From Tubiluchus corallicola (Eukaryota > Priapulida > Priapulimorpha > Priapulimorphida > Tubiluchidae), in contig JAQGDQ010000011.1 of NCBI GenBank assembly GCA_030141605.1, positions 430,066 to 494,065 of the forward strand: DNA of 64,000 nucleotides. The letters run 5' to 3'. Numbering within the stretch: position 1 is the stretch's first letter; each line of letters begins with the position of its first letter. The position numbers were made by a program, and so were the translations under genes. Shown piece by piece: positions 3,141 through 59,300 of the stretch. The notes under the pieces were generated by a model. It ran no database searches. It saw only the letters and a program-made list of their open reading frames with translations, and was not told the DNA's origin.

Positions 3141-3926
3141 TCAAATTAATTCCTCACCTAATTTCTAGCAAAGAATACCAGCTAGTGCGTTGATTACCAC
3201 AAATTCTAAACATGGTTCTAATAAGCCTTTTCTTAGCTCCAGCGATTGATGATGATCGTTAAAAGATCAAAGATGAAGTGTACCAGACAATGCGTTTCTG
3301 CAAATTTGACAACGCCTCGGAGCCCATGCTGTTTTAATAGTAACAGTTTGAACAGCTAGCTAGAACCTTGCCTAGTACATTTTTGCTTGTTTCTAAGCAA
3401 GAACCTGCTAGTAAATCATTCCATGCACAAGATAATGCATAACTAAGTAAAGTCCACGTAAAACAACTGAAGTTACTTAACTGATGTGACGGACAGCTTT
3501 GCTTTACACACATGTCGGGTGTAGTTAAGACACATTACTGTGGTGCACTTAACCTTTGACGCGTGCGCACAATGAAACGGTGAAAAGGCTTACTAACGCA
3601 ATTTATATTTTTATTATTGTTTGCAATTGATTTTTTTGTATTTAGCTACTGTCTTTATTTAACTAATGGTTCTAATTTGAAGAAGTGCTAATTAATAGTA
3701 TTAATTAGTAAATAATAGGAGCATGATGAATACGTAGTTACTTAAATCATAATTACCTAAGGATTATACTAGGCTCAAATTTACTTGAAGAACAATTAAT
3801 TAGTTCTACAATGTAATTACTCTAGGGTGAGTAAACGAACTAACACTTGGAAATGTTGAATTGGATATGCAGTTATGAGGGTTGAAGTAAGAGGCAATTT
3901 CTAGTAGTTATCGTACGCGACTTATA
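3141..3926. other. Intergenic AT-rich sequence
   Basis: I see no exon, RNA gene or clear repeat here. It separates the 3' end of the ADMP-like gene from a hAT transposon relic. Confidence 0.5.
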
Positions 3927-4883
3927 ATCTAAAGCAGTGGTTTTCAACTTTTCTCTGACGGGGACCCAATTGCGTCAGCTGCCCACGGTGCATGACCCCA
4001 ACCATTCGAAACTTAACTTTGATACTTATCAAAGAAATGAGAACATGTGCATCAAAAGGCCTTTTTGCAACTACTGGCAAATATTTGCTTTAAAATGTTC
4101 TAAAAATGTTTTAAATAATAACAGTTAGTTATAGCAAGGTTGTAATCAGTGAGAAGGTTGAGCTTGCTTTTCAGAAACCAACTTCTCGATTCGAGGTGCG
4201 GTAGCTGACAATGCCAGAATCATATCGTGTTCCAAATGTAGTCGATTTCTGTACTTATTTTTGACAACCACCATAGCAGAGAATGACTGCTTACATGAAT
4301 AGGACAAAGGATAAGACATGAAAACTTTGATGGCATGCCTCACCAAGGTTGGGTATGAAGGAATATTTTCAGGCAGAATGTGGGCAGTGAAAGTGACTGT
4401 GTAAGAACCTTTGCTCCTGTATCTTGCTGCAGCTGGACAAGCTCCTCCTGAATGGTATCCTCCTCATCAGAAATTGAGTTCAGCGGAGTTTTGAAAGGGG
4501 TCATGTACCACTGCAAAAGACTGCACACCCAACTCAGGAAAGTAGTGTTCAAACTCTTCAATGAGTAACCGAATATGACCCGAATAAGAAAGATGGTCCA
4601 TTTCATTACTTTTGCATTGGGAGACTCCTAAGTCCTCACTCCGACGAAGCAACCGGGTGAAACGTTTAGCAGCCACTCTCTTTTAGTAATTTTAAAGTTG
4701 CAATGACAATGGCAGTACAATGACAGAGAAACATGATAGTTTGCAGCTTATCCTTTGAGCGCAGGCAGTTACTGAAATTGTACAATTTTTTACGTATCAA
4801 GCAAATGTTCGCGACTCCAGAAAAGTTGCTTTGCGATCCCGTTTGGGATCGTGACCCCAAGGTTGAAAAACCACAATCTAAAG
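3927..4883 (-). mobile_element. Internally deleted hAT transposon with target-site duplication
   Basis: Element proper is 3935-4875. The left end starts CAGTGGTTTTCAAC and the right end, reversed, starts TGTGGTTTTTCAAC, so the inverted ends match over about 14 bases. An 8-bp duplication ATCTAAAG flanks it at 3927-3934 and 4876-4883, the size made by hAT transposases. Inside, on the minus strand, are the C-terminal parts of a hAT transposase. At 941 bp it is far shorter than an autonomous element, so most of the transposase is missing. Confidence 0.85.
4146..4676 (-). pseudogene. hAT transposase C-terminal fragment, frameshifted
   Basis: Three minus-strand reading segments (4467-4676, 4340-4606, 4146-4346) together resemble the C-terminal half of ZBED/GTF2IRD2-type hAT transposases. 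Landmarks are EEFEHYFPEL in the first, QEELVQLQQD in the second, and in the third SYSCKQSFSAM followed by KNKYRNRL and the ending EKLVSEKQAQPSH before the stop at 4146-4148, which is the hAT dimerisation region. The segments lie in different frames, so the copy is dead. The DNA-binding and catalytic N-terminal parts are absent. Confidence 0.85.
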
Positions 4884-5477
4884 GTTTCTGGTCCAGAACC
4901 AGTTGACTGACGATTTTTCACAGTTTCTTTTTTCGCCGTAATTTTCACGCTTCATTTTTAACAATCATTACTGTTTTTAATCCACATTTAGGTTGTACGA
5001 AAGGTAAAGCAGTAAAATATGTAAAACAGAATTCAAGGGAAATGGTTATAAGGCAATTTTTTATTGTTTTTCTGCTCATGTAATGCAGCTTAATGCAAAA
5101 CAATTTCTACTGAACATTGCAAAACTAAAATTTAAAAGTAAAACTTAAAAATGATGATCGATAACGAATTAGCTGAACAATACAAGCACGCACTGAAACA
5201 GTTATGTGTGAATACTAACTTTCATTAACTAACAATTTAACAAATAGAAGAGCCATAATTTGATTAGCGGATACTTTAAACATATGAAACTGCTGCCATC
5301 TAGCGCAGGATTAGGCAAGCTTGCATAGGTCCAGTATTAGGGAAAGTTTTCTTGTCAAAACCTAGCTCAAATATTTTAGCAGTAGTTATAGTGGCTTCTA
5401 ATTCATTTGGTTATTTACTAATATAAAGTACAAAGCTATATTTTAATATAAAGTAGATTTGTTTTAGTAGTTATGGA
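4884..5477. other. Intergenic sequence between transposon relic and SLC23 3' flank
   Basis: AT-rich with no exon recognised. TTTATT at 5060-5065 (AATAAA on minus) is a possible distant poly(A) signal for the SLC23 gene, about 900 bp past its stop; this is weak. Confidence 0.3.
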
Positions 5478-12709: not shown

Positions 12710-15700
12710 GCACGCACGCGTGCGCCCACACACTCACTCACACACGCACGCATGCACACGCGTGCACACGCACACATACGCATAGTCACCTACAGATATA
12801 ACCTAGATATACGATAGTTTAAAAATATTTTATGAAGAATGGGTAGCGAAAGACCATTTTGGTCATCTAGTCAGCTGCCCTTTCAATAAACAGAACGGAC
12901 ATTTGACTCTTACCAGGGTAATACATTTGCCACCAATTAGCCGCAGGTATCCACTCAGAGTAGTGTGTTGCGTTGCGTGAATACGCCCCAAAAGTTGCAG
13001 GAATGAAATCGAAGGTGATTAATAAAACTAATATCATATATGACCCTGATATAGCAATTAAAACCTGAAAGCAAAAAATATGTGGCTAGAGTTAAAGCAT
13101 CAAGTGTGATTATGATTTTTATTTGATTATATTTACATTTATAATAACAAGTTTATTTTAACTATTAATACATTTTGCTAACAAATAAAAGTAATTGGAT
13201 AACATATTTTATCGTTTGTCAAGTTCTGGTCACTGCACGTGAGTCTAAAGTCACAGGACTTAACTCATTACACCAAGTCTCAAGCAGACTTAGCTGAGGA
13301 GATTCTAAGATAGTCCACAGTTTAGTCTGTCAAATTTCAGAGCTAACCTACAATATTGTTAGCTGTTCCTAACGAGATCAAGTTTCTGTAGACATAAACA
13401 TGAAGTTTGATCATTTGCAATAATCGAGCATCAAGCAGTTTGTTTAATAAAAGGGTGATAATCCTAAAAATTACTTCTTCGAATGAGCTATATTTTGACT
13501 TTCTTGGAATACTTTTGTTTTGCCATAAAATTGTGGCTTCTCGTCTTGCGACTTGTGCACATATTTCTTGCGCGCAAATAATTGCTATACTTCAATTTTT
13601 TATTGTACCCATCCCCATCTAGACCTGTCATGTTTTATTCTACAGACAGTATGAGTTATACTGTCTGCAGAATAAAGGTATAGTATATGCTATACACATT
13701 TTTATAGTATAATCAAAATTTTTGCTTCTTGTATACTCTTCTTCTTCTTCTTCTTATCAGGTTGCCAAGCTAACATTGTATGCCCTGTCATAAATACTTC
13801 AGACTTTTCTGTTTCAGTTTTTCTTTTCTCTAGCTTTGTTTTAGTGGCGCATGCATCGGTCGTTGGCACACAGTACTGAAGATCAAGTTACGACCTAAAA
13901 GTAGAAGGTCTTGTAGAAGGGCGAACTGTGCAAACTGCTCACCGAAAAGAGACGGAACACTGGGTAGGATATTCGGTGGATCCTCTTCTTCAGAGTGCAT
14001 TGTAAGCAAGGTATCATAATCTTGCTAGCATACAGGGATGAAAAAAGCAGCAAAGCCAAAGTTCTGAAAAAACGTGAAAAAATAATTATTTAAACGCCAT
14101 CAACATTGCGAAAAACAATGACTTAAATGCTTACAATATTGTAAAAAGACAATTATTTAAATGCCCACAACAAAGTGAAAATACAATGATCTGAATGCCC
14201 ACAATATTGTAAGAATACAACGTTTTAAATGCCTACAAAATTGTATGAATACAATGATTCAAATGTCCACAACATTGTAAGAATATGGTGACTTAAACGC
14301 AACCAACAATGCAAGAATACAATGAACGCAAGAACGCAATAACTTAAATGCACAGAACAATGCAAGAACACAATGACTTAAATACACCCAACAATGTAAG
14401 AACACAATGATTAAATTGCATTGAATAATGTAAGAACACAATGACTTAAATACACACAACAATCTAAAAACGCAAGACTAAAATGCACTGAATAATGTAA
14501 GAACACAATGATTTAAATGCACACAACAATGTAAATATACAATCACACACCAGCACAAGAGCACAATGACTTAAATGCACACGAAAATGGAAGAATACGA
14601 TCACTTAAATGCCTACAGCACTATAAGAATAAAATGACTTAAGCACCTACAACATTGCAAGACTACAATGACTTAAATGCACACAACAACATAAGAATGC
14701 AATGACTCGAATGCACACAGCAATTTAAGAACGCAATAATATAAATACACACAACAGTGTAAGAACACATGTAGACAACAGTGTAAGAATACAGTGACTT
14801 AAATGCCCACGACATTGTGAAGCTACAATGATTTAATTGCCCATAATGTTGTAAGAATACAATGATCTCCACAACATTTAAAATCGTCTGTTATCGGTTA
14901 ACCATAAGCTTCACAAGCTTACGTTAAGAATTGCTTACGTTCAGTGTAATGTAGCGTAGTGCAGTGTAGTTCACTGTAAGTGTAGTATAATGTAGTATAG
15001 TGTAATGTAGTGTAGTGTAGTGTGGTGTGGTGTGGTGTGGTGTGGTGTGGTGTGGTGTGGTGTGGTGTGGTGTAGTGTAGTGTAGTGTAGTGTAGTGTAG
15101 TGTAGTGCAGTGAAATGTGTTGTAACAGTGATGATTTTGAGACATAAGCATTCTAATGACCTCTGTCGTGTTTATAAACACTTTTTAGTTGACAGTTTTA
15201 CTTTAATAGTCTACATACAATAAAGAAAATCCCCAGTGCATCTGGCATAGACTCCTGCATGCTGAAAGAACTTGAACAGAAGTTATGGTTATACTGGCTG
15301 CTATTGTCAGAGAACTGAGACGATGTAATAAATAACCAAAAATTCCCAGTGAACCAAGTAATATCTCCAAGCAACCTGCTAGCATTACACCACCTTGCAA
15401 CTGAAAAAACAAAATCGGTTCCCGTTTATTGGTAGGGAGACAGTGCCCAAAATTGAGTAAAAACGTGCATTGAACTTGCAGGAAACGGTGTCTCTGTGAA
15501 TTGTTAACTAAAAAAAATTGCTTTTTAATTACACAAGACAATATGACTAATTTACCTTTTCCATGTTGACAATCCATTCTGGAGTGGTAGTGTTGACTAT
15601 AATGGAATCTGTAAAACTATAAACTGAAAGAATAACCCAGTAAATCCACAAAATTATAATTACTTCTAAACGATTTATATTCGCATTATGTCTGTAGTAT

Positions 15701-32300: not shown

Positions 32301-35300
32301 AAGCATCCAAGTTGACTGCCTGGCTCTCTGTTTTAGGACGTGATTAAGCTTTATAGAAAGTGACAATCGAGGACCTCAGTACAGTCTAATGGAAAAGCTT
32401 CTTGTCATTTCTTTTTGTTGTTTCTGACACCTGAGCCTGTACCTGTGCATGCAGCAGTTGTCCACTGTTTACCTTTCCTTACAAATGAATAAACATTACC
32501 GTAGCGACCGCTAAAGACCCTGGAGAAAACTAATGAAGCTTGTATGCGCGTTTGTTTATTTTGTGCTAATTTGAAGATATTGTTTTCACAATTTTCCTTT
32601 ACGTAGCTGCTGCCTGTTGCCTTTTCGTTGGTGTCAAATTCCATGATCATAGTCGCCACGATCATGTTGAAAAATGGGATTCATGTATTATGCAAAACTA
32701 GTATTTTATAGCCAAGTAGGGTTATATAGTGCTCAAGTCTGGCAAAGCCTGCTGTGTTTTAACGACTAATAAATAGTCTGATGGGAATATGAATTTTATA
32801 ATGAAGCCGTCTAGATAGGGGCGGTTCCAGCAGTAAGTTTTAGAATAGGACTTCGCATGGGCGACGACCCGTTTTTATTTGATATCCCAACACTGCATTA
32901 GGTACTATTTTGGGTGGGGCGCCTGTACATGGATTGTGGAAAGGGGCCCCTGTTCATAGCCACGTCTTTGTAATTTTAGTTAATTACAGGCCAAGTTATT
33001 ACGTTATTACTCTAAGTTTTTACTTTATCTAACAAGATCATTCAGTCCTACTTGACAGAAATGAGAAATTCCAAGAAATTGTCGACATTTCTCGCCTTGT
33101 GATAATTAATGTAATTGAATTCCAGGGCAGAATGAATAAGCAAGAAAATTCAAGTGCCTCGAGCAAAGAAATTTTGTACAAGAGTTACTAAAGTTTTGGT
33201 GATATACTTCCTAAAATGAATAAATGAATGACTGGCTGACAGACTGATTGACTGAATGAATGAGTGAGTGAGTGAATGAATAAACGAATAAACAAAAGAA
33301 CGAACGAACGAACGAACGAACGAACGAATGAACGAATGAATAAATGAATGAATAAATGAAGGAAAAGTTTCGAAAGCTGCAAGCATATCATTGATGAAGT
33401 GAATGATTGATTGAATGAATGAATGAATGAATGAATGACTCATAAACTGAATGAAAATGAAAGAATGAATGAATGAATAAATGAAGGAACGAACATGTGA
33501 AGTAGTAAATGAATAAATGGGTGAACAAATAAACAAATAAAATAAAATAAAATGAAATGAAATGAAATGAAATGAAATGAAATGAAATGAAATGAAATGA
33601 AATAAAATGAAATAAAATAAAATAAAATAAAATAAAATAAAATAAAATAAAATAAAATAAAATAAAATAAAATAAAAACTTCAAAAATGTACGAAAAGTT
33701 GCTCGCAGTTCGAACTGAGAGGAACAATTCTGAAAGACCGGTACAAAACTTTGAATTTTTGCATTTAGTATCATTGTTATACACTGTATATAATTTTACA
33801 AAACTGATGTCAGTGATGTGGCACAATAATATAACGGAAGTTTTTCTCAATTTTTAGACATTATACACAAAGAGCACTGTAGTTGTCGTTTTGCGCGTTC
33901 AAAATGTGTGTTCATCCACAGAATAATCAATAAATAAACAATGCGACCCAAACAACTCACCTATCTCTAAGAATGGTCCACAATTCACCACCGAGACATG
34001 CTTCAAACATCATGTAGAGAAATTTTCTATCTTTAAACGTTCGATACAACCTAAAAATGCCCAAACCTAAGTATGGTGACTTCAAACTACAACTCTCAGA
34101 AAATAACCGATGTTCTAACACCATTAAGCCACACTGTTTAAAAACAGTTTACCAAGCCTAAAGCGATTGAGCATAAAAACTGTATATTAAATTGTTTGTG
34201 ACTAATGCTGAATAGTGCTGTGACCATAGTACTCAATACGGGAAATCATCCTAAGCTAAAGCAACAGATGTTGTGAGGTTCAAATGTTAAACAAAGTCAG
34301 AGCAGTATGTCTAATGCAATTTCTTTAATTTTACAAAGCCGTGGTTTTCATTTCGGGCAAGTATACATTGCAGCACACTCTACCACTGATGCTCTGAAGC
34401 TGATATCAGAGCAGCAACAGCCTAACAGTGATAACTACATTAAAATTATTTGTCTTACCAAGCGATGAAATAACACTGGCAAGCTTGCATTATTTGCTGT
34501 CTTATCTAGTAATGAAATCACACAGGCAAGCTTGCATTATTTGCTGTCTTATCTAGTAATGAAATCACACTGGCAAACTTTCATTAATTGCTGTCTTACC
34601 TAGTAATGAAATGGCACTGGCAAGCATGCATTATTTGCTGTCTTACCTAGCAATAAAATAACACCGACAAGCTTGCATTATTTGCTGCTTTACCTAGCAA
34701 TGAAATAACACTGGCAAGCTTGCAGTATTTGCTATCTTACCTGGTAATGAAATAACACTGACAAGCTTGCATTACTTGCTATCTTACCTAGTAATGAAAT
34801 CATACTGGCAAGCTTGTATTATTTGCTATCTTACCTGGTAATGAAATAACACTGGCAAGCTTTCATTAATTGCTGTCTTACCTAGTAATGAAATAACACT
34901 GGCAAGCTTTCATTAATTGCTGTCTTACCTAGTAATGGGCAAGCGTGCATTATTCGCTGTCTTGCCTGGTAATAAAATAACACTGCCAAGCTTGCATTAT
35001 TCGCTGTCTTGCCTGGCAATAAAATAACGCTGGCAAGCTTGCATTATTTGCTGCTTTACCTGGTAATGAAATAACACTGTTAAGTATGCATTACTTGCTA
35101 TCTTACCTAGTAATGAAATCACACTGGCAAGCTTGCATTATTTGCTTTTCTGACATGATATGGGTTTGCTGTCTTGTGTCGACAATGTGTTTCTTTTTCA
35201 TAATTTTTAGTGCAAACGATCGCTTCTCATCTCCCTCTATCTGTACCTAAGAATAATTACAAAATAAGCATCTTTAACAAAAAAAAGTACAGAGTAATTA

Positions 35301-38500: not shown

Positions 38501-41294
38501 ACTCACCGATAGCGTACTAGCAGCGGCGAGACAGGGATATCGTTCAAGTCCCCATTGAGGTCATAGGTTATATCCTGATAGGAACTGTCAACGAAAATCA
38601 GAATTCGCTACTTCATATCCATTCAAGTTTATTGACAACTAATTACTAATTTCTGTTGGCAATTATTGATGATATTCAGTATTTGTTTTACATAATTGAC
38701 AAGTTCAAAAAGAAAAAAAATAAGAATAATGAAAGATTGGGACCTGAGCATATGCTTTCAGTTTTTGGTTTCTTGACTGTCTACTACTACTACTACTACA
38801 TAATTTATAAGATAAGAAATGAAGTAAGTCTTATTTCAAACTGATAAAAAAAATAATAAATGTTATTTTGAGAGCAACAAACACAATACGTGACTGCACA
38901 TTTTGTTCTGCATGTAACAGAAAACCAGTCTTTACTTAAACGACGTTCTACAAGGATTTACCATTGGTCCTGAGTTATTTTTAAAACAAATTGATTTTGC
39001 TTTTCATACTCACTCTCTGTCTAGGCACAAACAGGTGACCCCTTCAGGGTCATTTGCTATGATATTAGCCGTCCTGATTTCATCTCTGAAAATGAGGAAA
39101 CAAAAAATATTTCAGTTATGAGTGGAACGTGTTTTCCAGGAAATTTCTGAAACGTCTCAACATAGACGTGTTTTATTGCTCCTGTCTTATTATTAATTTA
39201 ACAGTTGGAGTAATATTAGATGCTGAGTAATAAAGGGGATTCATAAACCTGCGTTGGGCAATTTATTGTCCCCATTGCACCCTGTATTAACGTGTTGTTG
39301 CGTGAGAAAAAAATATAGCAAAATAAGCTTATCAGGTTAAAGGCTCTGGGGATGCTGAAATGGCTAATGTAGCGGTTCTGTGTGAGATATTCTTCACTTT
39401 AAGAGAAAGATGCCGCAGTTAAGCGGACTGACATGCAGTTAAGCTTCCAATCTTGTTCCTACTGCACAAAAACGCAGTATGCTATTGCAAGATTGGTTGG
39501 ATAAAAAACAATGAAAAGAAACATTACTTAGTTAAATCAGTGACTTATCTCCTATCCTTTAACTTAACTTTTATTGCCCTTGTCCTGTGGTGTTTTACAG
39601 GTTTTTAATAAACATTACTGGGATCTCGCACACAAAAAATGAAGGTAGCAGGATTATTGCAATGCCATCTAATGTTAAATTCAACGAAATAATAATGAAA
39701 AGATGAATACTAGTGTAACTGTGTTAGGTAAATGTGTCTTACCCTTGCAAGGCACGTTCTCCGAAGAAATCTCCTTTCTTCAAAGTTCTAATGAACGTCT
39801 CCTCGTCGGGACGGTGAGCTCCTGAGGAGCGATTGGTCACCTTGACCTGTCAGGTAAGAAAATTGGAAAACTAAAAAACGTGTGTTTTCTACGCTAAGTG
39901 GATCAACTTTTTACCATGTATTTATATCGAACTAAACATGCAGAACGCAGTTTCGAACTAATGTAAAGGGTGACACGTAATCTTTGCTGGGGGGGGGGGG
40001 GGGGCACAAAACAACGAATAATAGCACAGAACAGTTTACCACATCGAAATGTTGTTCAGACAATGGCGAATGTATCATTTATCAACAAATCTATCAAAAT
40101 CTAGTATCACAGCCTCATGCGTCTCACACAGCTTCAATGTTGAGGGGTATGATTGGAGCAGTGACCCTCGTACGTCTCGCATAGCTTCAATGTTGAGGGG
40201 TATGATTGGAGCAGTGGCCCTCGTACGTCTCGCATAGTTTCAATGTTGAGGGGTATGATTGGAGCAATGACTCGAATAACTCAAGATCCTCCAACACATC
40301 CTGCGGATATCTCACAAGCTTATCTAGCGAATGCTGATCAATGGCTTGTTTTTATCATCTTAGCGTCCATTCTGTCTTTCAGGAAAGTTCCAGTGTGTTT
40401 GGCGGGATTAAGGTCCCGGTGTATTTCCAGGCCACTCAGTTAAATCGAAAAAAATGATTCCAGAGTTTTCCGGTCGCTGCATGGATCATATACACTGTAC
40501 TCATCGAGATTGCAGATTGCAAACTAAATTCTGAGGGCAATTTCTATTATTCTAACCATTCTTTGATGTAATAAATTGCTCTGTGTTGTTATTTACTGTT
40601 TCTCTACTCCATAGCAGAAGGTTATGTACTATCCTGCATATTGTGTGAGGGCCTTTTTCACAATGGATGATTGTATACTGACTTGAAAGTACTTTGAGCA
40701 TGTGATGGACAAAGTAAATGACACAGAAACCTTTTGAAACCACTTCTGACACAAACTGCCTCAGCATAAAGAATAAAGCCTCTTTATTTGTTTCTGACTT
40801 GGATCGATGTCAAAGTGCTTCACTCTAGAGCTCTTTTTGAGGAATGAAAAAGGGGAAGGTTTTTTCCCGACAGCCTAAAGCTCAACTGACGTTTCCTGTA
40901 TTAGTAGGAAAGGGCAAAACATTCACTCCTCAAGTTTATCGTTTATACCGAGCAGTAAATTACACAACCGAGTTCTGAATAACTCAGTTTAGTGCCTTGT
41001 TGGCATGTAAACAACGAAAAAAATCAAAAGATTTATATAACACCAAGTGCGGGGCATCACAAGTGATGTGTTACGGATAACAAGGGCTAAGGAGAGGGCC
41101 CAAATGTTTGTAAATTATGTTAAGATAAAAAACTGTTTATTGCTGTTGACGCTGTCACTGCTGTTTCTCTTGCTGTTGCTGTTACTGAAGTTGTTGTTGC
41201 TGTTGCTTCTATTGTTAACGTTATTGTTTGTTATGGTTGTAGTAATAGTAGTAGCAACAGCACTAGCAGTGGCAGCAGTAGCAGCAGCATCAGT

Positions 41295-53300: not shown

Positions 53301-56300
53301 CTTACTATTTTCAAAGTCGTCGATCACGCATTTATTTTGCGAACCATCCTAATCGGTAGATTATTATTAAAGGAAAGGACAAGTCACTTGGCATATTGGA
53401 TTTATTTTACTGTTATCACTTAAGCTTAGAAAAATAAAACAAAAAAAAAATCCAAAAACTACTGTCCATAAAGCATAAAGTTAATTTATTTTACAGCTGT
53501 ATAGAAATTTTCAGCCTCGGTGGTTGCTGCCACTCACTTGAAAATTCTGACGTAACTGGTGGATTTCGTGACTTTTCGTAAGCGCGAGCGCTTAAACTAA
53601 TTCAAGCTTTTGCAGTTTACTTAATGTTGTTCGCGCAAAAATATCACAAAATTAGCTATCCAATTTTTGTTGAAACTTCTTATACCTTTGACCGATAGTG
53701 TGCTGCTTTTCTTCAGTCGATGAATACGTTACAGGCGGAAGAACGGGCGTTCAAAGTGGAAGCACCCAAGCCTGAAGTGATCGCAAGTTTAAAACGGCTT
53801 TACTAATTGCACAAGGCACTTTTATTGCAAAATCTTTCTAACATTTTTCGCGAAAATTGAAATAAGCATAACTTTCTAGAAAGCTTGTCTTTTCCTTTAA
53901 TAATTGTGAGTTCATTCTACTATTTTGTAAGCATTGTTCTTGATTATCTTACCGCTTAAATAAACCTTTATGCAGCAGATAATAAGAATGGCTTTAAGCA
54001 GGAAAATTGAACAAACCATATTACATAAATAATAGTCTAATGTTTTGTTTTATTTTTCGCCAAGTAAATTGTTTACCAGATAAGTAAATAAGCCTAGATA
54101 ATTTTATTAAAATAATTGTTCACTTGGCTAATCTTTAGTAATAGTGAGCACATAATACAACAATAATTTATTGTATCTTCTAATACCTGGGGCGATTTTG
54201 AAGACTGGGTACCTATTTTTCGAAATCTTACACTTTAGGTGTTTTGTGTGTTGCTTGGACGTATTTTATAAATGACGCTTTTTGCTTGTTCGCTTTTTGA
54301 TACATTTTAACAAATCTAATGCAAACGTCTTACTTTTGCTATAGTGTAACCCTTTCTTCCTGACGATGCGCGGACTTTCCTCTTCACTGTCCGTTGACGG
54401 AATAGAGATTCGACGAGGAGGTGGAGAGTAGCCGCGCCTTCCGAGAGACGGTGAATTGCAGATCCCGATGCCGTATCTCCGCTGGGTCTGCCTATTTTGC
54501 CCTTGTCCCTCCGGGGATTTACTTTGAGATACTTTACTTTTCAGCAGGCTCTTCCGCATTTCGTAATGGTTCACTCGTCGCAGAGGCACCGGCGAAGGTT
54601 TGCTCGCCAACTGAGTCCGTTCCTTGATGTTGATGGTGACGACAATAGAGTCATTTCTATCTGTAGCGCCAGCATCGGCTTTTTTAGGGCGATTCACAGC
54701 ATTTTTGATACCCAAATTAGTTCGTTTGTACCTGTAACTCTCCTCGAATGCGTGAGTTGAGGGTTTCTCGGAAGAACCACGTATTGGAGGCGCAGGCGGC
54801 GGTTGTTCCAGGTGCGTCCGATTCTGCACTGTAACTCTTTCATTAGGTATCTTAGAAGACACGTTTGTTGTTATGGCACTGATAGGGTTTGACGCGGAGA
54901 ACACTTTGCGAAGGCTTTTCTGCGACCGGTTCAACAGAGCTGAGAAGGAATCGTTTAACCGACTCCTAGGTGAGTTGTGCCGGGTGTACGAAGACGGCTG
55001 GCTGCCTCGAACAGCGGTGGGGTCGGTGGCGGTGCGAGCCAAGGCCGGATGTGCTGACTTAGCATAATTCGATCCGGTATTTGCAGAAAATGTTACCTTC
55101 CGCGGCGAGCTTGAGCCGTAGGACAGCGGATTACTTCTAGCCGGCGCCAGTGGTCGTCTTGGGAAGCCTTCCATTGTTAAATCTGGAAATGCAGGGGACG
55201 GAAGCCAACCGGAGTACCTCCCCTAATCACCTTTTCTCAAATGAATTCACTAAAGCAGATGTCTAAACTCAGCAGTAACTGTGTCATTTACGGTTAATCA
55301 CATTTGTTATCTCAAACTAACGCGTTAACGAGCAAGCCCCGGGGCGTTACGCCAAAGTCATGCACTAGATCGTTGCCCTGCTGAAGCCATCTAGCAATCA
55401 CATCACATCATTGCCCTGCGGATAACGCTGCATTGAATAATATTGAAAACGAAATCAGTGCAGTCTAAACAACAGCGTTTTTCACACAAGGAAATCCGTA
55501 TGCAGAACTGGGCGCTATGCAGTGATGATGCGAAAAGAGAAGCCCAGTAGGCTTATACACTGCAAGAAACTGAATGTTCAAGGCTTTTCCAATTGATGCT
55601 AGTCACCCTATACACATACATATACATATACCAGTGTCCAAAGCAGACACACACGTGTAGGTACAGGAAGCCAAACTAACATTTCGAACGCCTTTTGACA
55701 AGAGTTTTCAACAGAATTCTTCGACACATCTGCTTGCTGTTGGTATATACATATACAAGTGGCGTGAAGCTTATGTCGCGTTACATTTAGGTCTTGTTCG
55801 TACAAAGGTTCTGGAACAAGCCGCAAATAGGGTCCCAATCACCGAACACATTAAAAGAAAACGTCTCTGACAAAAAAGTTTTACCTTCAACATTATCCTT
55901 GCACTGCACTTTAAATTGTTGTTACAGGAATCGATTACTTACCAAGTAATGGTGATAAACCTAAATGAAGTCACTAGAAACAAGGTATAATGTATCTGTT
56001 TTACCTTGACACTTTGGGATGACTAAGCTGTAAAAACTAAGTCAACAATCGCAAAGGTAGTGAAATTAAATGCAAAAAATGCTATACATCAGTATTACCA
56101 CAATTCATCAGTTTACATGGTTCAACAACCACCAGACTACATTTTCAGGGGTGCTTTCGACAGAACGGTGCTATCTCATGTCTCTGTTCTACTATGGTGA
56201 TATAGAATTATGCACCAATTGACTAGTCTTATATGAAGATGTCTTCAATAGAACATTATTGTACAGCAGTTTAGTCTTACACGAAGATATTTTGTGCAGC

Positions 56301-59300
56301 AGGTGCCTATTCTGGAATGGAGATATCTTCAATAGAATACAATTGTGCGGTAGTTGGCTAGCCTCATATGAAGATATATTCAATAGAACATAACTGTGCA
56401 GCAATTGGCTAGCCTCACATGAAGATGTCTTCAATAGAACATAATTGTGCAGCAGTTGGCTAGTCTCATATGAAGATGTCTTCAATAGAACATAATTGTG
56501 CAGCAGTTGGCTAGCCTCATATGAAGACATCTTCCGTAGAACATGATTGTGCAGCAATTGGCTGGCCTCATATGAAATTATCTGCAGTAGAAGGTTGTTG
56601 TTCAGCAGTTACGTGTTCGTAATAAATGATTTCGAAGAACATTGTCGTGATGTAGCCGAAGCTAACGCAAGTGAACCCGTCTTTAATATGTCAGCGGTGT
56701 AATTACACAAGAGAATTTTAGAAAAAGAATGCTGTGTGGCAACCCGAAAATCTTCCAAGTGAGGATGTCTTCAGAAAAACATCGTTACGATATTAGCTAA
56801 ACCTCTATTCAACAAGAGATACAGAACATTGTTGCAAGGTATAAAGCTGATTTCACAGAAATTTTTCTTTCAAACAACTCAACTTTCTGCATTTAACTGC
56901 CCTTTGCTGCGCAATAAACTTCAGCGGTCTCTGCTGGCAACGAACACTTCATTTACGACATTCATAAAGATTTTCGCTGTGCTCAATTGCGCTCATTGCT
57001 GATACTTGGAAAAAATTCACGGCATCAGCCGCTGCTGCCAGGAGAAATGACAGTTGCGCGTCTGGTTGTGCAATATAAAAGCGGCAAGACAATAAACTAC
57101 ATCATGCCGTGGAATACATCGCGTTTATCTGTTGCTGCGCAGACTCTGCAAGCTTCCATCGTGAACTGCTATTATCTATAGTTAGCTAGGGCAGGTATTT
57201 GCTTTGCAAATGAGTGTCTCATATGGCAGAACGCGGAATCACGACACGGTTTCTCAGCGAACAATTGCGCACGCTAGCAGCAAGTTTAGATGTAATAACA
57301 GCTCTGGGCAATCAATGTATGTGTACTTTGGACATTGACACCTTGACTTCCTCGGCTTCTTGAAGCCATGTTGGATAATCTTCTTCAATAATGCATGTCT
57401 AGTGATTCTTAAATCTCATGCAATTGTCTCGCGTGGGGGCTAAGCTGTATTAGCTTTGTGTATGTAAATTGTTAATGCAATGTAGGCGACTGTTTTTCTT
57501 GTAACGTAGCTAACTGGTTATGATTGGTTAACTATTTTGCAATGTGAATGTTAGTTGAATAGAAGGTTGCCAGGCTGCGATTTGGCTCAATAACGTAAAA
57601 AACTGTTTCATCAGAGCCCTTTCTACTAAAAACAACAGATGCTGGCCTCTTGACATAGTGGTTGCTTTATTGAAAGTGCTCACTACTCCAGTTTATTGCG
57701 CATTAAGCACTGCTTATCTTTAATCAGCAGCTTCCAGTAAAGCTACAAGCGCGACTCTGTGCTACGCAAAATAGTAGACTGGAAGAGCATTGTTTTGAGC
57801 ATTGTACTGAACATAATACTGAGCATTGTATTAATGACAGAAATGTTTGACTCAACTCGGTCATAGATAATTGCTTTGGGGTAATTGTTTTTACTAAGGA
57901 CAGCTGATGTCATGTTTTTCTTATACATGCATACATATAATATATTCTTTTACACGTAATGTTTCTTATCTTGCTCCAAATAGTTCGTAAACATAAATTT
58001 TTAACAAGTACATGACTTTGCCACGTAAATCTTAGCACAACAAAAATTGATATAACACATAACTAAAGATAGTATTTTGTGTTTTTGCTAACTATAAACA
58101 TCTATTTTGTGGGCGAAGACTTGGTTTTTGCTAAAAAGTGAAATTGAGATTTCCGAGTTCTGTCACCCGGCAGCAAACATTCAAATTTCGACGTAAAATA
58201 TGCATGTTTAGGAGAATTTTCCAGTACAGAATCAGATCAACACATGAAACGTAATTAATTTCAAAATAATGATAAAGTATTTACACAGATGCAGTTTTGT
58301 TTCTTCACAGAGTCGCGTTTTGGATTCCACCCATTTAAATCCACGATTCCATCCCGTTTTTTTAACATTACGTCATTTTCAACATGCTATTCATATTACC
58401 AAAACTTATTGTGAAAGTGTATATAAAAAAATCTTAGATTATAAGCGAAGAGTTAAGCCTATGATGCACTAAAGCTTCTGACTTGCAGCGTTTAACATTT
58501 ACTGGGTAGTAAGTTAATAACAAAGCGTCCGGGGTCCAGTCTGTGCGTTCTTCACAGAAAAACAAAATGGACGATATCAAATTGATTTTTGCAATGCTTT
58601 CTCTTTTACGTTGTTTATTCGTATAATAATTCGCAGGTTAGTCACCATTGTTGAGGAAAGTAGCTGGACGCTGGATACGCAGTAATAGCAAGAGCTTTTC
58701 GCCTCTGGTTTCCAGCGTCCGCTGTCAAAATATTTGATTTCATCGCCCATTAACAATACATCCGTTCTTTCTCGCTTCCAAACGCTGCACACGAATGTCA
58801 GATGCTAGGCCCTTTGATGCATCATAAGTTTATAGTAACTGGTAAAGGCTAAATAAAAGTAAAGAGTCGTTAAGGATATGAGAACATTAGAAAATATTGT
58901 TAGCTAAAGGGAGTTTATTATAAAATATAATTTAGGGATTTTTTAATTATAATTTAAATCAAACAAATTAAACAATTAAATTAATTACTCAGTGTGTCAT
59001 TCTCGTCGTATGTTTCTGTTAGCACAAAGTAAAATATTGCAATTTTAGAACGAAAGTAGCACGTTTTGCTGGTCATACTATAACTTAACTACTAATCGGC
59101 TTAATGGACAAGGTTTCTGTGCTAACAGCAGCAGACATGATTGGGCTTTTAAAGCAGAAACTAAATTTCCTTTAATTTCTGTTCGGTTCTGTTCTTGGTT
59201 CTTCAAAAAGGCGAATTTCTCTTCACCGCGCAGCTCTGGTAGACAGAGTGGCATTTCTTGAAGCTTTTCCACGAAAGTGATGACAAATCTTGGCTTCTAA

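Follow-up and report, generated by a model that had tools for sequence, protein, structure and literature searches.

A tandem array of a kinase exon end and its splice donor with the structure of a mirage minisatellite

How is a kinase still made from a gene in which the end of one exon, together with its splice donor, has been repeated in tandem into the intron behind it? This question is raised by an array on the minus strand of the window, which is the whole stretch of DNA analysed here, 64,000 nucleotides in length. The reading that we favour, with a probability of about 0.78, is that the array is a mirage minisatellite that arose when the exon-intron junction was duplicated, was spread by unequal exchange, and is normally removed whole through use of the exon-proximal donor.

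The minus-strand gene is a cGMP-dependent kinase (PKG) and is PRKG1-like. The top PDB match is human PRKG1 (E 8e-40), and the gene also matches Pfam Pkinase (E 7.4e-15). With the human PRKG1 kinase domain as the tblastn query, six ordered minus-strand matches were found that jointly span query residues 1-315, comprising the kinase domain and the C-tail; several of the kinase exons lie downstream of the array intron. The exons on either side of the array and the intron that holds it are the following.

35107..35246, minus strand: PRKG1-like kinase exon, the source of the array (PDB PRKG1 match, tblastn, sequence)
34051..35106, minus strand: host intron, GTAAG..TTTTTAG, about 1.06 kb (sequence, tblastn)
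33961..34050, minus strand: following kinase exon, which starts with G and ends with AG (sequence, PDB match, tblastn)

The 3' end of exon 35246-35107 reads CAA ATA ATG CAA GCT TGC CAG TGT GAT TTC ATT ACT AG, followed by GTAAGATAGC, with which the intron opens at 35106; the last exon base is 35107. Joining this first donor to the 34050 acceptor gives ACT AG/G TTG, a join that keeps the kinase frame, and the human PRKG1 alignment runs across it. The phase 2 that the initial annotation assigned to the real acceptor is confirmed by both the sequence and the PRKG1 alignment. The conserved PRKG protein is obtained only with the first donor joined to the 34050 acceptor, which supports use of the first donor. 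Simple repeats of AAATA and AATG are found in the next kinase intron (window 33535-33677 and 33215-33493).

TRF calls the array at 34451-35146, with a period of 47, 15.0 copies, 83% matches and a score of 916. The array starts about 39-40 bp inside the PRKG exon, 14 copies extend into the intron, and each unit holds the junction.

34451..35146, minus strand: minisatellite of mirage structure, a 47-bp unit of exon end plus donor in 15 copies (TRF, alignment)
35107..35145, minus strand: the 39 nt of unit 0 that lie in the exon, up to the real donor at TAG/GTAAGATA (alignment, donor scoring)
34928..34929, minus strand: decoy donor of the 37-bp unit, which has a 10-bp deletion (tblastn sequence, alignment)
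34458..34459, minus strand: farthest copy, TTG/GTAAG, followed by non-repeated intron (alignment)

The unit junctions, with the real one first, are at 35107, 35060, 35013, 34966, 34929, 34882, 34835, 34788, 34741, 34694, 34647, 34600, 34553, 34506 and 34459. That the unit is the PKG exon end joined to its donor, as the initial annotation proposed, is borne out by the PDB and tblastn matches, TRF and alignment, and the units do align to the exon end at 35107-35145, with a mean pairwise identity of 85.6% among the 15. A recount likewise agrees with the proposed 14 further copies, ten of them with GT at +1/+2 (two of the others have GC and two AT). The ACTAG/GTAAG-like setting attributed to the GT copies applies to the seven that read AG/GTAAG, but two read AG/GTAAAG and the last copy TTG/GTAAG. 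With the real site included, AG/GT is present at 10 of the 15 junctions. Most units are 47 bp, as was claimed of all of them, but the unit at junction 34929 is 37 bp.

A tandem duplication across the junction would have taken in ~39 bases from the coding end of the exon and ~8 from the start of the intron, with unequal exchange or slippage then multiplying the extra intronic copies and homogenising them in part. A sequence shared by the exon and the distal flank is a plausible breakpoint of the first duplication, the match being short and A+T-rich.

35137..35144, minus strand: CAAATAAT in the exon, possible duplication breakpoint (8-nt match to the distal flank)
34445..34452, minus strand: CAAATAAT in the intron past the last copy (8-nt match to the exon)

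Adjacent units (lag 1) are 86.6% identical, against the 85.6% overall. Because neighbours are barely more alike than distant units, the array as a whole does not seem to be a recent expansion. The Asp codon GAT of the exon is TAT in nine of the 14 units (GAT in three, CAT in one and deleted in one), which gives no indication of recent exchange with the exon; the earlier suggestion of gene conversion from the exon finds no support in this comparison. No second copy of the 710-bp array region was found in the 343.5-Mb genome, which makes the count at least one, repeat counts being lower bounds.

Arrays of this anatomy are present in other genes. The genome was scanned for runs of three consensus donors, with a reversed pattern as the control; the places counted are overlapping matches within a few arrays and do not stand for separate loci. 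AGGTAAG with gaps of 34-64 gave 5,946 places against 308 in the control, many among the matches listed being simple (AGGTA)n, and CAGGTAAGT with gaps of 15-45 gave 380 against 29, its groups being read from the matches listed (to C620). The full lists for TAGGTAAGA and AAGGTAAGT hold 19 places against 2 and 85 against 37, respectively, the latter being little above control. Among the matches listed, 26 distinct array groups were read ahead of the first donor. Families were counted once, C14 (AGGTAAG scan) was grouped with C2 from the printed letters alone, and C10, C18 and C19 (AGGTAAG scan) and C370 and C1580 (AAGGTAAGT scan) were left out as pure simple repeats.

In 16 of the 26 groups, no open frame or recognisable exon was seen ahead of the first donor: the C2/C14 family, C12, the TCAAATG family (C16/C17), C236, C265, C357, C482, the C507/C557 family, C598, C548, C1112, C1179, C1715, C929, C1340 and C1884. 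TCAAATG-rich 42/60-bp repeats with AGGTAAG (L036 2572-2804 and 8094-8326; L035 3812-3963; C16, C17) are apparently a non-genic repeat family. C217 is uncertain, and for C30 and C417 the stretch read falls short of the array start. The other seven arrays start on an exon end that is either recognisable as such or open, and each of their copies carries 14-41 bp of exon sequence along with the donor.

L032 (C5:110500-118500) 3522-5118, minus strand: PDCL3-like array, 33 bp, 48.5 copies (PDB PDCL3, Pfam Phosducin)
L034 (C16): ferlin array, 68 bp, 9.2 copies (FerB E 1e-22; myoferlin 3.3e-14)
L047/L053 (C620): EAAT/SLC1A array, 54 bp, at least 18 copies in the stretch (SDF E 6e-16; EAAT1 chimera 5.5e-19)
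L054 (C2083:290900-292700), minus strand: EGF-like array, 33 bp, 24 copies (EGF_laminin E 1.4e-4)
L065 (C1015): ANKRD13 array, 32 bp (E 9.6e-11)
L067 (C1693): NOMO array, 31 bp (PDB NOMO2 E 5.7e-13; the sole Pfam row is below its cut-off)
L063 (C828): array on a 60-codon ORF, with no family over its cut-off

The PDCL3-like gene matches PDB PDCL3 over two joined exons (E 2.4e-20) and Pfam Phosducin (5.5e-7). For the EGF-like gene, EGF_laminin passes its cut-off of 21 bits with a score of 22.4, and the top row, EGF_Teneurin, scores 23.5, below its cut-off of 24.3. A search of NCBIfam, a prokaryote library, gave no match. In the PDCL3-like array, 4 of the 33 sites of the exon copy depart from the consensus, whereas 46 of the 47 other units differ from it at 0-2. 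This indicates that the array homogenises without the exon.

Tandem arrays are prone to assembly error, and the PKG array could be an artefact, or a repeat collapsed or expanded in the assembly. We regard this as highly improbable. The 15 units are 74-96% identical in pairs and carry private substitutions and one deletion, and copies that differ from each other are unlikely to come from a simple assembly duplication. The same anatomy is also found on other contigs with other units.

If the first donor is chosen, the whole array would leave with the intron and the kinase would be made; this would still work because the exon-adjacent copy stays intact. The scoring of donors that the initial annotation recommended was done with a generic position weight matrix (PWM) and a computed U1 duplex energy. 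The real PRKG donor has a PWM score of 8.9 and a U1 duplex of -9.4 kcal/mol. By this matrix, seven of the 14 extra copies score no lower than the real donor, and two of the seven exceed it.

34834..34835, minus strand (also at junction 34741): decoy CAG/GTAAGA, stronger than the real donor (PWM 11.4; U1 -11.0 kcal/mol)

By the same matrix, the decoys that equal or exceed the real donor number 38 in the PDCL3-like array (all 38 equal to the real donor CAG/GTAAGT), 6 in the ferlin array, at least 17 in the EAAT array and 9 in the EGF-like array. Such decoys lead one to expect some mis-splicing, which counts against the first-donor reading. Of two strong donors, the intron-proximal one often wins, and against that expectation a faithful exon-proximal choice would be of interest.

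Read-through past the real PKG junction gives ACT AGG TAA, a stop after one codon. The stop comes after one codon in the PDCL3-like and EAAT genes as well, after 3 in the ferlin gene, 7 in ANKRD13, 12 in NOMO and 13 in the 60-codon ORF (C828). The stop was originally placed in every PKG unit; it is absent from the register of the two GC units, but use of any decoy would still lead to a quick stop, because the transcript first passes through the AGG TAA that belongs to the real exon. Stray decoy use would probably yield an mRNA that is degraded. The EGF-like array is the exception, with a read-through open for 264 codons, that is, 24 x 11 residues with the consensus GKTVNGDHCDI; a donor stands at the end of most units. 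This array could in principle give in-frame length isoforms. No coding constraint was seen in this array: diversity at third codon positions is 0.053, against 0.129 and 0.112 at the other two, and third positions that are not more diverse give no sign of protein selection.

These stops could also be read as a poison-splicing switch, in which decoy use leads to an immediate stop and nonsense-mediated decay (NMD) and so tunes the level of the kinase. The one-codon read-through and the seven decoys that equal or exceed the real donor in score fit such a switch. With several kinase exons downstream, a stop at this point would be NMD-competent. The donor columns are no more conserved than the others, however, and GT is lost in four of the 14 copies. 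The same structure is present in functionally unrelated genes, and the long EGF-like read-through shows that such arrays do not always bring a quick stop. Taken with these points, a poison switch is unlikely.

The comparison of columns covered nine donor columns across the 14 intronic copies, in which conservation was not above the rest (pi 0.188 vs 0.141); 77% of random nine-column sets were as low as the donor columns or lower. By this measure, the decoy donors show no sign of being under selection. Local RNA folding gave the real donor no accessibility advantage over the decoys. The conservation, folding and exon-exchange results speak against selection for decoys, short of excluding it.

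The initial annotation had listed selection on the real donor, U1 recruitment by the array and regulated NMD as possibilities. With U1 recruitment, the donors would speed the splicing of this intron, or guard the pre-mRNA against premature cleavage and polyadenylation. For each of the 10 additional GT copies the computed U1 pairing is at least as strong as -6.7 kcal/mol, and the U1 genes of the genome have the standard ATACTTACCTG 5' end in 6 of 6 read (11 matches, 9 above the family cut-off). Against this, the donor columns show no extra conservation and the host intron is only ~1.06 kb, and we consider U1 recruitment very doubtful. Regulated NMD or U1 recruitment by the array is possible but unsupported, and the array probably has no function of its own.

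Because AG/GT stands at unit borders, each unit is a potential GT..AG mini-intron, and the array could be an intermediate of intron gain or re-splicing whose units become exon pieces or are spliced stepwise. The 10 AG/GT junctions and a pyrimidine fraction of 0.60-0.65 ahead of the junctions are compatible with this. An intron of 47 nt is short for an animal, and this alternative has very little probability in our estimate. Recursive splicing of the units was set aside, as it has structural plausibility alone. Tandem duplication of an AG/GT segment is described as a route of intron gain, and in the potato case the duplication crosses an intron-exon boundary (PMC3443670, PMC4974935). The PKG array differs in that the duplicated junction was already an intron border. 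No new intron is seen within once-exonic PKG sequence, and the next exon follows at 34050 in the expected phase.

The preferred reading, a mirage removed with its intron, has a precedent in amphioxus. Tandem repeats that cross an exon-intron boundary received the name 'mirages' in the case of amphioxus Adh3, and they are also described in the globins BflGb6/BflGb9, troponin C and PGBD5, so that several genes per genome carry them (PMC3087553, PMC3902484). The Adh3 unit is 10-72 bp and many units have AG/GT signals; RT-PCR suggests that amphioxus mirages leave regular splicing undisturbed; and the clusters vary in length between haplotypes, with somatic instability for Adh3 (PMC3087553, PMC3902484). 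The cluster boundary is reported to be excluded from homogenisation, and the amphioxus globin paper proposes intron gain for mirages (PMC3087553).

As in amphioxus, the PKG repeat unit spans the exon-intron boundary while the real boundary is intact and the frame is kept, and the structure recurs in several genes of the genome (seven of the 26 groups read, among the matches listed). Some amphioxus mirages are on the acceptor side, whereas the arrays here were sought by donor patterns only. The amphioxus mirages are backed by RT-PCR and haplotype data, whereas the PKG array is known from one assembly. In its structure, on which class membership rests, the PKG array fits the description of a mirage minisatellite; it is real, but of an already described class of repeat. 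The conserved kinase frame and the amphioxus data together suggest that the exon-proximal donor is mostly used.

Related repeats in human genes behave differently. In the minisatellite of human IFI6 (6-16), the repeat units supply several splice donors (PMC4526556, citing Turri 1995). Two downstream units serve as donors there, and distinct isoforms are encoded by the transcripts (PMC4526556), so that minisatellites of this kind are not bound to be silent; decoy use in PKG, in contrast, would end the protein one codon further on. In human segmental duplications, variable internal tandem repeats are located at the exon-intron boundaries of genes and are said to cause novel introns to form, often with an alternative repeat-retaining transcript (PMC2812944). 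The PKG array resembles these only in being a boundary minisatellite.

The name 'mirage' for boundary repeats was not found outside lancelet papers, in a literature that included few subscription papers. If the host is not a lancelet, the class would extend beyond cephalochordates, although boundary repeats related to mirages are already known in human genes (PMC4526556, PMC2812944). Pooled over the window and loci L032-L068, some of which overlap, G+C is 36.4% (158,920 bases). Branchiostoma is higher, at ~41%. A search for COX1 gave no match, and neither did one for the mollusc haemocyanin domain Haemocyan_bet_s, in which the controls had no match either, so that this second result carries no information.

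A broader proposal, which we put forward tentatively, is that exon-end/donor minisatellites are present genome-wide outside cephalochordates, in dozens to hundreds of genes by extrapolation, and that the first of up to ~40 equal donors is routinely picked, by a strong exon-proximal rule or with regulated decoy use. If true, such a rule in this lineage, or such regulation, would go beyond what standard models of two-donor competition predict. The arrays are natural experiments in splice-site choice, in that donors of equal computed strength lie tens of bases apart and the first alone leads to the correct protein.

Other minisatellites in the window are at 14077-14866, 40113-40271 and 56292-56610, with units of 34, 53 and 51 bp. 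The TRF list for the window has 54 rows, some of which cover one and the same array.
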